IMG/VR virus record: IMGVR_UViG_3300046808_001241
Location: 62,001-126,000 of that record
Strand: one strand, 5' to 3'
Length of the DNA stretch: 64,000 nucleotides
From: a virus
The position numbers and the translations under genes are program-made. Below, in pieces: positions 2,829 to 40,668 of this stretch; within the stretch, counting starts at the first letter, position 1, and each line of letters starts with the position of its first letter. Below the pieces are notes generated by a model. It was given only the letters and a program-made list of their open reading frames with translations, ran no database searches and was not told the DNA's origin.

Positions 2829-3476
2829 ATGGAACTACTTAAAAAAGCTAACGGTAATATCACTCGCACAGCGGAAGAAAAAGCTCAGATGATCGAGCGC
2901 GCTGCTGAATATTATGGAAAATTTTTGACAGCTTTGGGATTCGATTGGGCAGCAGATCCTCATTCAGCAAACACTCCTAAAAGAGTAGCTAAAGCTTGGG
3001 TTAATGATTTGATTTCCGGTTCAATTAGCCCAGAGCCTGAAGTTACAGCATTTCCTAATGATGAAGGTTATACGGGCCTGATTTGTCAAACACGTATTCC
3101 TGTTGTTAGTATGTGTGCTCATCACAATTTGACGTTTCACGGTGTGTGTCACGCGGCATATATTCCAGGCAAAAATAAGACAGACATGGTTATTGGGTTG
3201 AGCAAACTAAATCGTATCGTGGACTTCTATTCCAGACGACCAAACATTCAGGAAAGTCTAACAAAGCAAATTCACGATCATCTAGATAAACTGTGCGTAG
3301 GCAATCGTGGAGTGGCATGCATTATAGAAAGCCAACATTTTTGTGTAAAATGCAGAGGAGTCAAGAACGATAGTGTTATGAAAACTTCGCAATTATCGGG
3401 TTATTTCCACACCAACGAGGTCGGAAGCCGAGTAGAACTATTTAATCTTATAGACCAGAGTAGATTTGGATCGTGA
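2829..3476 (+). CDS. folE: GTP cyclohydrolase I (FolE type)
   Basis: The enzyme converts GTP to 7,8-dihydroneopterin triphosphate, the first step of folate and of 7-deazaguanine (queuosine/preQ0) synthesis. The family motifs are clear: SMCAHHNLTFHG near residue 94, GLSKLNRIVDFYSRR near 123, and QHFCVKCRGV near 169. The zinc ligands Cys96, His99 and Cys172 are present, so it should be active. Its length (215 residues) is normal. In phages this gene usually feeds a DNA-modification pathway; a QueD-like and a TGT/DpdA-like gene occur together near 37 kb in this window. Its stop overlaps the next start (GTGA). Confidence 0.95.
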   Translation: MELLKKANGNITRTAEEKAQMIERAAEYYGKFLTALGFDWAADPHSANTPKRVAKAWVNDLISGSISPEPEVTAFPNDEGYTGLICQTRIPVVSMCAHHNLTFHGVCHAAYIPGKNKTDMVIGLSKLNRIVDFYSRRPNIQESLTKQIHDHLDKLCVGNRGVACIIESQHFCVKCRGVKNDSVMKTSQLSGYFHTNEVGSRVELFNLIDQSRFGS

Positions 3477-36982: not shown

Positions 36983-37000
36983 TAGAAAATAAACCTAAAA

Positions 37001-37035
37001 AAAAAGACCCTTTGCTGTTGCATTGGGTCTTTTTT
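37001..37035 (+). terminator. Strong intrinsic terminator
   Basis: AAAAAGACCC, a 14-nt loop, then GGGTCTTTTT: a 10-bp stem with a T-run. The flanking A-run makes it potentially bidirectional. It separates the late fibre cluster from the downstream modification-type operon. Confidence 0.85.
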
Positions 37036-37052: not shown

Positions 37053-37397
37053 ATGACTACAAACATTATCGTAAAATTGCAGTACGAAGCCCTTCATAAT
37101 TGGCCAGGAGTCGTTAATGTATTGCCTGACAAGCCTTGGATTCACATGCTTAAAGACAAGCATCGACATATATTTCATATTACTTTGGAAAAACAAGTAA
37201 CTCACTCCGATAGAGATGTTGAAATTATTTTGTTTAAACAGGAAGTGCTTCGCAAGCTTGAAGTATTTTTTGGAAGACCAGGAGATTTAGGTGCAATGTC
37301 CTGTGAAATGCTTGCAGAGCAGCTTCTGAAAGAATATGATTGCAATTCAGTAGAAGTGCTTGAAGATAACGAAAACGGAGCTAAAGTCTATAAATGA
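37053..37397 (+). CDS. QueD/6-pyruvoyl-tetrahydropterin-synthase-like T-fold protein
   Basis: A 114-residue protein with ALHNWPGVVN, a KHRHIFHITLEKQV strand holding closely spaced histidines, DRDVEIILFKQEVLRKLE, and MSCEMLAEQLLKEY followed by VEVLEDNENGAKV. This order parallels QueD/PTPS: the zinc HxH strand, the D-x-x-x-L/F-K helix, the SEVLA motif and the final VxVxE strand. QueD makes 6-carboxytetrahydropterin from the GTP cyclohydrolase product on the way to preQ0. It is a divergent member and activity is inferred. The frame is read from ATG 37053, after the promoter. Confidence 0.55.
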   Translation: MTTNIIVKLQYEALHNWPGVVNVLPDKPWIHMLKDKHRHIFHITLEKQVTHSDRDVEIILFKQEVLRKLEVFFGRPGDLGAMSCEMLAEQLLKEYDCNSVEVLEDNENGAKVYK

Positions 37398-37810
37398 TTT
37401 CATTCGTCTGTGGTCAGCTTTGTTCTGGTAAAACTCTTTATTCTAGAGCTCTTGCGCATACGTCATCAGCTCATTATGTAGAAGTCGGAGATGTGGTGAG
37501 AATGATAAAAATTAGTCAAGATCGCAAGGTACTTCAAAACTCAAAAGAGCTATCCGGAGCAATTGTAAATTGGATTAAGAAAAGTTGTAATGAACACACG
37601 GAGCTTGTTGTATCTGGTGTACGTCAAAAAGAAATTTTGGAAAATTTTCCAAATTCTACTTTACTTTGGATCGAATGTCCGATTAATACTAGAAAAGAGC
37701 GATATCAAAAGCGTGCTCGTGTTGGAGATACGCAAACGTTTGAAGAAGCGGAACAAGGAGATATCAATCTTGGAATAATTGACGTCAGAAATTATATTTT
37801 TAGTAAATGA
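37394..37810 (+). CDS. P-loop nucleotide/nucleoside kinase-like protein
   Basis: A 138-residue small kinase: Walker A GQLCSGKT at residues 7-14, a hydrophobic strand LLWIECPINTRKERYQKRAR that resembles the lid and LID-arginine region of adenylate or dephospho-CoA kinases. The substrate is unknown; within this operon it might act on a modified nucleotide or base. It overlaps both neighbours by 4 bases (ATGA), so it is translationally coupled. Confidence 0.75.
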   Translation: MISFVCGQLCSGKTLYSRALAHTSSAHYVEVGDVVRMIKISQDRKVLQNSKELSGAIVNWIKKSCNEHTELVVSGVRQKEILENFPNSTLLWIECPINTRKERYQKRARVGDTQTFEEAEQGDINLGIIDVRNYIFSK

Positions 37811-38598
37811 AATTCTATTGCATACCACCTAATAACCACTTAGATTTGATGGATCAGTCAGAAAGATATTTTGGTCTTGCTCATCTATATCATCAAAACG
37901 AAAAATACAAGAGACATTTTTTAGCACTTCGTAACAGAAGTCCGAAAGTATGGATAACCATGGATTGCGGAAGTGCAGAACATAGTCTTGTTACAGAAGA
38001 TGTTTTGCTAAATATTGTTGCAGAACTCAAGCCAGACGAAGTAATTGCTCCAGATGTTTTGTTTAATAAAGACGAAACACTGAAGAACTTTAAATCGTTT
38101 GTACAAAAAATGTATAACAAAGGTCTTTTGTCGCACACCTCGATATTTGCTTGTCCTCAAGGTTCTAATAAAGAAGAATGGCTGGAGTGTTATTATCAAA
38201 TGGTTGTTAGTCCTTTCGTAAAATGCATTGGTCTTAGTAAAATTGCAGTCCCAAAATGCTGGAATGATGCAGAAGGAGATATAATGATTGGAGTGTCTAG
38301 AAACCAATGTGTAAAGGAACTAATCGACAAACAATGGCTCATTAAACCTCTACATCTTCTTGGAATGGGAGAACATGATGAATTTGAATACTATTTGAAA
38401 AACAGAGTTCCAAACATTCGTAGTTCTGATAGTTGTTACACAGTTCTTGCTGCGATGAACGGTATTGATTTTGAGAGTGGAGATACTTCAAGAGTGCCTA
38501 CAACGAATGCTTACTTTGATGCAACTCTTACAGAAGAACAAGTAAAAATTGCTAAAAAGAACTTTAACTATCTAAAAAACAAATACAAAGACGTATGA
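37807..38598 (+). CDS. TGT-like / DpdA-like guanine transglycosylase
   Basis: A 263-residue protein of the tRNA-guanine transglycosylase superfamily. It has TMDCGSAEHS (Asp53, where TGT has DSGG), FACPQGSNKEEW (Gln118-Gly119, as in TGT GxxQG), CIGLSKIAVPKCW, LHLLGMGEHDEFEYY, and IRSSDSCYTV (Asp208 at the place of the TGT nucleophile). It is much shorter than bacterial TGT (about 375), as are several phage DpdA proteins that exchange guanine in DNA for preQ0-type bases. Tight coupling to a kinase, a QueD-like protein and a glycosyltransferase supports DNA modification. Confidence 0.75.
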   Translation: MKFYCIPPNNHLDLMDQSERYFGLAHLYHQNEKYKRHFLALRNRSPKVWITMDCGSAEHSLVTEDVLLNIVAELKPDEVIAPDVLFNKDETLKNFKSFVQKMYNKGLLSHTSIFACPQGSNKEEWLECYYQMVVSPFVKCIGLSKIAVPKCWNDAEGDIMIGVSRNQCVKELIDKQWLIKPLHLLGMGEHDEFEYYLKNRVPNIRSSDSCYTVLAAMNGIDFESGDTSRVPTTNAYFDATLTEEQVKIAKKNFNYLKNKYKDV

Positions 38599-39269
38599 GT
38601 AAACTGTTAATTGTCACTTGCACACAAGCAAAAACCGATAAAGAATTTGAAGTTAGACCGATTTTTCATAGTCTAAGAAAACAGTTTGAATCAAATAAAC
38701 AAGTAGAGTTTCACATCTTTAAAGACAATCAAAGGGGTCTTTCTCAATGTTACAATGAGATTTTAAAAGATCCTGATCACATCGACAAAACTGCTTTGTT
38801 TGTGCATGATGATGTAGTGTTAGAAGATTTGTTCTTATACGAAAAACTTATTAATAGTCCGTATTCTATTACCGGCCTTGCTGGCGCTAAAACCTTCAAT
38901 AAAGCGAATGACAAGCTAGCCTGGCACCTTGCTGCAGATCGTTCAAGTTATGTGGGAGAGGTTTGTCATGTAACTAAAGACAGAGGTGTTTGGACAACAT
39001 GTTTTGGGCCAACAAATTCAAGAGCCCTTACACTAGACGGCTTGTTCATTTCTTGTAAAGTTAAAGATCTTGTGGAAAAGGAATTGTATTTTGATGAGAG
39101 CTTTGCTTTTCACTTCTATGATTTGTCTTTTTGTATGAGAGCTCATGAAAAGAAAGTTACATGCGGCGTATTGTCTATTCGAGCAGTTCATAGTGGTCTT
39201 GGAGATTCTATGTTGACGCCAGAATGGGAAAAACAAAATATATTGTTTAAAGAAAAATACTGCAAATGA
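38595..39269 (+). CDS. GT-A glycosyltransferase-like protein
   Basis: A 224-residue protein with ALFVHDDVVLEDLFLYEKL (an acidic DD pair like the GT-A metal site) and a later DESFAFHFYDLSFCMRAHE, typical of family-2-like glycosyltransferases. It overlaps the transglycosylase gene by 4 bases. It could glycosylate a modified base in DNA, a nucleotide sugar acceptor, or host surface glycan; the operon favours the first, as inference. Confidence 0.7.
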   Translation: MSKLLIVTCTQAKTDKEFEVRPIFHSLRKQFESNKQVEFHIFKDNQRGLSQCYNEILKDPDHIDKTALFVHDDVVLEDLFLYEKLINSPYSITGLAGAKTFNKANDKLAWHLAADRSSYVGEVCHVTKDRGVWTTCFGPTNSRALTLDGLFISCKVKDLVEKELYFDESFAFHFYDLSFCMRAHEKKVTCGVLSIRAVHSGLGDSMLTPEWEKQNILFKEKYCK

Positions 39270-39796
39270 TTTTAACCAACAAACAAATAACAGCTATTAC
39301 TAACGAAGGTGCTTATGAATGCCTTTTTTCAAAACAAAGGTTTTCGACTGCTTTTTTTGAAGATCCTTCACCGCTGGGAAGCATTATCGTATTTGAGACT
39401 CCTGTAAAAATTGGTCCTGTGAGTTTTGAACGCTCGTTAGTTATTTGTGGAGAGCTTCCAAATACTAATATATTTGGTGGAGTTTGCTTTCAAAGACTTT
39501 ATTCAGCGCAACTTGGTTCAATTCTTTCGAATTTCTTAGAAAAGCAATGCTATGTTAACGAAAATTGTTTGTTTGTTGAACAAGAACAAACATCGATTAC
39601 GGTAGTCAATCAATTAAAATCTAGTATTATGTTTCATATTTTCCTTCCAATCGTTGTTAGTAAAGAAGGAACTAAAGGACTCTATGAAATTAAATTAGAA
39701 GAAGATAGCATGCAAGAGTTTAAAGAACATTGTGTAAATTCTTTTCATCACCTAACAAAAAGTTTGTTTCTAGAAACTCAGCGTGACAACATTTGA
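39266..39796 (+). CDS. Conserved T4-like hypothetical protein
   Basis: A 176-residue protein with FETPVKIGPVSFERSLVICG, ELPNTNIFGGVCFQRLYSAQL, and a C-terminal HHLTKSLFLETQRDN. I recall this as conserved in large T4-like phages, of unknown function. It overlaps both neighbours and so belongs to the same operon. Confidence 0.7.
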   Translation: MILTNKQITAITNEGAYECLFSKQRFSTAFFEDPSPLGSIIVFETPVKIGPVSFERSLVICGELPNTNIFGGVCFQRLYSAQLGSILSNFLEKQCYVNENCLFVEQEQTSITVVNQLKSSIMFHIFLPIVVSKEGTKGLYEIKLEEDSMQEFKEHCVNSFHHLTKSLFLETQRDNI

Positions 39797-40133
39797 TTAT
39801 ATCAAAGACATCATCATAACCAAACGAGGAGACTTGCCTTTAGATGGGTATGCACCATTTTTAATAAATCGATTTTTATCGTTTATTAATCCTCAAGTTT
39901 GTGAAGCAGTTAATCAACTAAATACCAAAATACTATTAGAAGACAAATTGCTGCACTATAAGCTAATGCTGTCATTGTTTCCAAAGATGAGTTCTGTACC
40001 TTATATTAAATACGTTAAAAAGGTCCAAGAAGAGAAAGATGAGAATCAAGAACTAAAAACTAAAATAAAAGTTCTTGCTCAAAACATGGAACTTTCGGAA
40101 AGAGAAGTTACTACTTTGCTTTCTTCTTTTTAG
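39783..40133 (+). CDS. Conserved T4-like hypothetical protein
   Basis: A 116-residue protein starting at a GTG, MTTFDYIKDIIITKRGDLPL, with LINRFLSFINPQV and LFPKMSSVPYIKYVKK, then a coiled C-terminus. This pattern is conserved in related phages and sometimes linked to the replication clamp-loader position; I cannot confirm that. It overlaps its left neighbour by 14 bases and ends convergently with the next gene (23-base overlap). Confidence 0.65.
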   Translation: MTTFDYIKDIIITKRGDLPLDGYAPFLINRFLSFINPQVCEAVNQLNTKILLEDKLLHYKLMLSLFPKMSSVPYIKYVKKVQEEKDENQELKTKIKVLAQNMELSEREVTTLLSSF

Positions 40134-40668
40134 CTTCTTCTTTTTCTTTGCGCATTTTTTCTAATTTTTCGCGATCCTTTTTCAGTTGAGGATTGCGTTC
40201 GCTTTCGTCATGAAACGCACCCTTCATGTCATATTCTTTTTTCTTTTCGGAAATAACTCTGCTGAAAAGATCTTTAAAAGTCAAACCTTCTTTCTTTAAG
40301 AAATCAGGTTTCTTTTTAGATTTATCTGCAACAGCCTTTTTCATTGACTCCTTTTTATTGCCATCTTTATCAACATCCATGTAATCTGGTTTGGCTTTCT
40401 TTTTAGCCTCTTCGATGGTTTCTTGATTGTCTTTGCATTCTTCGCAGCCAGTACAATCACAGCCCTTTGCAGCATGTTTGCAATGCAATTCCTTTGCTCC
40501 TTTGTTAGTAATTACGTTGTATGCTTCAGCAAGCATGTCTTGGTCTTTTGATAATGCAGTGTTACTAAGAATAGGAGCTTGTTCGATCAATTGATCTTTA
40601 GAAGGTTCAACTTTTTTAGTAATGCCTTCGTAAAGTCCAGAAAGAGTTTGAGTGTCTTTAAATACCAT
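40111..40668 (-). CDS. Late virion-type protein with DxDxDG loop
   Basis: A 185-residue protein starting MVFKDTQTLSGLYEGI, a virion-type N-terminus. It has a Cys-rich patch (HCKHAAKGCDCTGCEEC), then PDYMDVDKDGNKKESMKKA, a calcium-loop-like sequence found in prohead and virion proteins of T4-like phages, and a long Lys/Glu tail. It may be a head or internal protein. The late box is 6 nt before its ATG. Confidence 0.65.
   Translation of the reverse strand: MVFKDTQTLSGLYEGITKKVEPSKDQLIEQAPILSNTALSKDQDMLAEAYNVITNKGAKELHCKHAAKGCDCTGCEECKDNQETIEEAKKKAKPDYMDVDKDGNKKESMKKAVADKSKKKPDFLKKEGLTFKDLFSRVISEKKKEYDMKGAFHDESERNPQLKKDREKLEKMRKEKEEAKKKKAK

Follow-up and report, generated by a model that had tools for sequence, protein, structure and literature searches.

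A viral operon pairing a short DpdA with a QueD-fold protein and a kinase, predicted to place 7-deazaguanine in phage DNA

An operon encoding a QueD-fold protein, a P-loop kinase and a short DpdA, acting with folE, queD and queE genes encoded elsewhere in the same viral genome, probably puts a 7-deazaguanine derived from 7-carboxy-7-deazaguanine (CDG) in place of guanine in phage DNA; we give this reading a probability of about 0.8. The operon lies in a window of 64,000 nucleotides, positions 62001-126000 of a 217,182-bp virus record, and what we observe there and in related loci is gene content, protein folds, conserved active sites and a recurrent association of genes. The module is a variant of known DpdA systems. 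Its strongest new element is a kinase association specific to one class of DpdA, and a link to glycosyltransferases is a secondary lead behind it. A first-pass annotation of the window had proposed a novel DNA hypermodification: a 7-deazaguanine DNA modification pathway entered through FolE stands, while the preQ0 route and the presence of QueD in the operon do not, and decoration of the base by the kinase is the less likely role for that protein.

Layout of the operon and its precursor genes

The four genes from the QueD-fold gene to the glycosyltransferase gene (Table 1) overlap successively at ATGA, as originally described, and the coupled run extends past them through the DUF366-like and clamp-loader-like genes to a total of at least six genes. 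Because this run also holds a clamp-loader gene, overlap alone is no proof that a gene belongs to the pathway. The same gene order is seen again in related viral contigs (L016-L031). A scan of genome contigs from 84,980 species gave no relative of the locus. The claim that the operon follows its own promoter is unsupported, with 14 sigma-70-like sites found and 12.2 expected from shuffles; a terminator-like hairpin just upstream (-19.9 kcal/mol, z -5.9, 0 of 200 shuffles equally stable) sets the operon apart from the preceding structural genes. Inspection of related loci by eye showed a ThyX-like gene between the QueD-fold and kinase genes in L021, L028, L029 and L030, and GroEL- and GroES-like genes lying downstream of the short DpdA, at a distance of a few kilobases, in L034, L044, L045, L052 and others.

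Table 1. Features of the operon and its pathway entry gene, in window coordinates
Feature	Coordinates	Strand	Evidence
folE, GTP cyclohydrolase I, 215 aa, pathway entry	2829..3476	+	PF01227
Terminator-like intrinsic hairpin with T tail	37000..37035	+	RNA fold
QueD-fold (T-fold) zinc enzyme, DpdL-like candidate, 114 aa	37053..37397	+	phrog_17812, AlphaFold, Foldseek
NMP-kinase-like P-loop protein, 138 aa, predicted deoxynucleotide kinase	37394..37810	+	AAA_18, profile match
Short DpdA, TGT-fold guanine transglycosylase, 263 aa	37807..38598	+	phrog_20335, AlphaFold, Foldseek
GT-A type glycosyltransferase, 224 aa	38595..39269	+	PF13712
DUF366-like protein, 176 aa, translationally coupled	39266..39796	+	PF04017 below cut-off
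Replication protein resembling a clamp loader; closes the overlapping run	39783..40133	+	phrog_225 3.5e-6

The active-looking FolE first picked out as the entry to the 7-deazaguanine pathway is upheld as such (PF01227 match, E 2e-42), and is 61% identical to the FolE of Chryseobacterium phage MA9V-3. QueC and QueE had been reported missing, which is correct for the window and, in the case of QueC, for the genome record as a whole, in which none was found; at the level of the genome, by contrast, adjacent queD (G000:39180-39614) and queE (about 39600-40362) genes are present outside the window, at ~39.2-40.4 kb of the record. Since queD and queE are present and QueC is absent, the phage can make CDG but not preQ0, and the earlier suggestion of a preQ0 route, partly host-made or encoded elsewhere, is rejected in favor of a CDG-derived product. 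The true QueD of the phage keeps the catalytic Cys and Asp-His but has lost two of the zinc histidines of the E. coli enzyme (the first His, and one in HGH, which has become HGY); the loss is similar in phi13:1 and MA9V-3 (L002, L003).

Proteins encoded in the operon

The first gene of the operon had been called QueD-like, and its product is instead a QueD-fold paralog. The protein belongs to phrog_17812 (E 4e-23), and its AlphaFold model (pLDDT 96.5) matches E. coli QueD (4ntk) with a Foldseek E of 8e-6, placing it in the T-fold; this structure comparison replaced a weak profile alignment between the family and phage QueD (hhalign, 15.7%). It retains three zinc histidines (H15, H37 and H39) and the anchoring E104, while the catalytic Cys and the Asp-His dyad of QueD are absent from it and from its family. 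With these residues missing and a separate QueD encoded in the genome, identity as QueD (6-carboxytetrahydropterin synthase) is rejected. Many phages carry a member of the family, usually near folE, queD or queE, and among the loci examined QueC never occurs in one locus with such a gene. We consider it likely that the protein acts on CDG and gives it an alternative fate, most simply decarboxylation to 7-deazaguanine. Cui and colleagues reportedly named a predicted CDG decarboxylase DpdL in 2023, and the QueD-fold protein presumably fits this enzyme. In L003 and L063, judged by eye, the QueD-fold gene is fused to, or continuous with, a segment resembling an HNH endonuclease.

The third gene encodes a member of phrog_20335 (E 2e-58) that gave no meaningful match to Pfam or to PDB chains by sequence, so that its relationship to TGT is visible by structure only: a model built with 44 aligned relatives (AlphaFold pLDDT 95, pTM 0.91) returned TGT for all of its top 50 PDB matches in Foldseek (best E 5.5e-8). 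Asp53, Gln118-Gly119 and Asp208, first noted at TGT positions in the window's protein, are present and invariant across the 44 relatives, as is Asp83, and D53, D83 and D208 are kept even in divergent DpdA classes; alignment with E. coli Tgt by hhalign pairs Q118-G119 and D208 with its QG and FDC, at a probability of only 5%. The likeness to phage DpdA enzymes drawn in the first-pass annotation is thus borne out by fold and conserved catalytic residues, and the modeled protein is a short DpdA-type guanine transglycosylase of the TGT superfamily for which base exchange is predicted. A chain of matches leads from it through Youna2 and Bacillus phages and Flavobacterium phage immuto (annotated DpdA) to Campylobacter phage CP220. 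The protein is distant in sequence from tRNA TGT, an identity that is rejected for two reasons: the chain stops after the barrel helix, short of the C-terminal zinc/tRNA-binding subdomain of a full-length TGT, and none of the 44 members matches PF01702.

Short DpdAs have little beyond the barrel, without an added nucleic-acid-binding domain, and are mostly acidic (median pI 5.0), as compared to a basic median of 9.0 in a 300-aa class; the window's DpdA, with a pI of 6.5, does not show this acidic trend strongly. Conserved positions compared between classes with and without a kinase gave no clear phosphate-binding signature. The further DpdA-like class of ~300 aa (L101-L145) is accompanied by a QueD-fold gene and mostly by a GT4 glycosyltransferase, and matches the NCBIfam DpdA family only at E 0.003. 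In Rhizobium phage RHph_I1_18 (L084:8065-9333), a DpdA-like domain is fused to DUF3310.

The glycosyltransferase family is matched by PF13712 in all 14 of its members (best 3e-9), the window protein reaching 6.7e-6 and 26.4 bits against a curated cut-off of 27, and carries an invariant H71-D72-D73. Its gene directly follows dpdA in close relatives and is conserved only there. The DUF366-like protein matches PF04017 at 1.9e-4, below cut-off; five of its 11 relatives match the family (best 3e-6), and in most close relatives its gene is flanked by those of the glycosyltransferase and the clamp loader. Searched with tblastn, 50,697 phage records hold no match to either protein.

From these components, a pathway may be proposed in which the chemistry of every step is predicted. 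FolE, QueD and QueE would convert GTP to CDG; the QueD-fold protein would tailor CDG, with decarboxylation to 7-deazaguanine as the probable reaction; through the covalent chemistry of TGT enzymes, the short DpdA would swap guanine for that base, with the free deoxynucleotide dGMP narrowly the most likely substrate; the kinase would lift the exchange product towards the triphosphate, for incorporation by the polymerase; and the glycosyltransferase may afterwards glycosylate the modified base in this clade.

Kinase association and the level of base exchange

The second gene encodes a relative of NMP kinases, judged from its sequence a predicted deoxynucleotide kinase: it matches AAA_18 at 2.8e-7, its profile matches the adenylate-kinase-like 3lw7/3h0k at 7.5e-9, and its P-loop has invariant G7, G12 and K13; the match to the (d)CMP kinase family TIGR02173 (1.7e-4) is far below cut-off. 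To relate this gene to DpdA type, 132 distinct DpdA loci were sorted into classes and scored for a kinase within 4 kb of DpdA. Such a kinase accompanies 55 of 58 short DpdAs and three of 74 others (Fisher p 1e-29, with no correction for relatedness); mapped onto a 69-DpdA tree, the kinase label can be explained by 4 changes, where shuffled labels need 13.1 on average. The long and 300-aa loci were fetched through their QueD-fold gene, which leaves the kinase contrast unaffected and makes the frequency of the QueD-fold gene there a matter of construction. Among the three exceptions in the short class, L058 runs into the end of its contig, while L050 has a QueD-fold/kinase fusion, as do L036, L042, L049 and L073; in L097 the kinase is fused to FolE. 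Kinases or P-loop proteins of other families lie beside DpdA in Youna2, BSP7, immuto and CP220, and a recognised kinase is missing from about a dozen loci that have a DpdA of intermediate length and a QueD-fold gene. The first-pass annotation suggested that both the kinase and the glycosyltransferase could decorate the base. Since the kinase is related to nucleotide kinases and goes with DpdAs of this class in many phages, phosphorylation of the modified nucleotide, its predicted activity, is a more likely role for it than decoration of the base; for the glycosyltransferase, decoration may hold, with some support from unrelated glycosyltransferases in sister systems.

How some phages come to replace all of their guanine with 7-deazaguanine is unsettled, as DpdA is thought to act after DNA is made and total replacement resembles incorporation; the kinase association reopens this question of pre- or post-replicative exchange. 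By a narrow margin we favor a route in which free nucleotides undergo the exchange and are then phosphorylated and incorporated, over exchange on DNA, while holding it at a little under an even bet: the class-specific kinase, the MazG or HD phosphohydrolase genes beside short DpdAs in phi13:1, immuto and CP220, the bare barrel and the total replacement in CP220, where 100% of dG is replaced by dADG (PMC8306585), all fit such a route. The MazG and HD phosphohydrolases could drain dGTP; neither is recognisable in this genome. Hardly less credible is that the short DpdA acts on polymerised DNA and that the kinase takes no part in modification but helps to supply nucleotides, for example by salvaging the released guanine or balancing dNTPs. 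This is the general DpdA model in the literature (PMC6884629; PMC12707154), although a modified dGTP was left open for Campylobacter phages (Hutinet 2019, PMC6884629), and phosphoribosyltransferase genes near both long and short DpdAs (L082, L087, L130-L133 and others) could salvage the released guanine. Such a division of labor sits poorly with a kinase specific to the short class and in places fused to pathway enzymes, since long and 300-aa DpdAs would also release guanine yet are found without it; nor would it lead one to expect a mostly acidic enzyme that is little more than a barrel, and total replacement as in CP220 would be easier via incorporation. On the other side, Crippen and colleagues are said to have found no dADG nucleotides in Firehammervirus infections in 2019, which counts for post-replicative exchange, and Cui and colleagues reportedly argued in 2023 that all DpdA insertion is post-replicative. 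With a kinase so linked and at times fused, and with MazG or HD genes as neighbors, the level of exchange becomes directly testable.

Two further explanations concern what the genes are for. That they raise queuosine precursors for tRNA in the host and leave phage DNA untouched is very improbable: FolE, QueD and QueE are indeed common to queuosine synthesis, and a queuosine role has been raised for phages without DpdA (Hutinet 2019, PMC6884629), but without QueC both preQ0 and queuosine are beyond the reach of the phage gene set, the operon has a dedicated enzyme of the TGT fold whose sequence is distant from tRNA TGT, and a homolog of that enzyme occurs in CP220, whose DNA is fully modified. 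There is an even chance, by contrast, that the genes for the glycosyltransferase and the DUF366-like protein share the transcript as passengers with an unrelated function, for example in protein or surface glycosylation. Both are confined to the close relatives L016-L031, phi13:1, MA9V-3 and other short-DpdA loci have no recognised counterpart of either, and the coupled run holds a replication gene as well; against this, the glycosyltransferase gene lies immediately 3' of dpdA in close relatives, and GT4-type glycosyltransferases unrelated to it lie near DpdA in 48 of 54 long or 300-aa loci, several of which also have sugar-nucleotide epimerase or nucleotidyltransferase genes. Together these recurrences make a glycosylated 7-deazaguanine plausible, and glycosylation of the modified base by this enzyme in this clade is possible, if a little less likely than not. 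In L016 and L017, an epimerase-type gene lies directly upstream of the QueD-fold gene. A limited search of the literature found no description of a glycosyl-7-deazaguanine; recurrent unrelated glycosyltransferases beside DpdA hint that sugar-decorated deazaguanines may exist as a class, which would bear on restriction evasion. The full combination, in which short DpdAs are nucleotide-level exchangers in a 7-deaza-dGTP pathway with the QueD-fold protein and the kinase, all guanine is replaced and glycosylation follows in this clade, is unlikely to hold in every part.

Comparison with known systems

Among the known systems nearest to this one are those of the Cellulophaga phages phiST and phi13:1, where the trio recurs in unchanged order, from the QueD-fold gene through the AAA_18 kinase to the short DpdA. 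Their modules include queD, queE and folE, whereas in this phage queD/queE and folE lie tens of kilobases away; phi13:1 also differs in having MazG in its cluster and no glycosyltransferase. Chryseobacterium phage MA9V-3 carries a homologous module with queE and folE.

In the Campylobacter phages CP220 and CPt10, an HD-phosphohydrolase/P-loop protein, a short DpdA and a thymidylate kinase are encoded in a row, and their DNA carries 100% dADG. They differ from the present system in this product and in a kinase of another P-loop family, and no QueD-fold DpdL-like gene was found beside their DpdA. We take the CP220 enzyme to be DpdA3, the complete-replacement class reportedly described by Cui and colleagues in 2023. 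The window is linked to DpdA3 solely through the homology chain from its own protein to Youna2, immuto and CP220; a short DpdA is common to both, and this phage differs in having a QueD-fold gene in place of QueC and in its additional genes for the glycosyltransferase and the DUF366-like protein.

A further likeness, which we propose, is to the Z genome (2-aminoadenine) pathway of PurZ, DatZ and MazZ: the normal dNTP would be drained, a modified dNMP made, phosphorylated and incorporated. The modified nucleotide comes from a PurA-like synthetase there, and from TGT-fold base exchange in our proposal. If true, exchange at the nucleotide level would be the guanine analogue of Z-genome logic.
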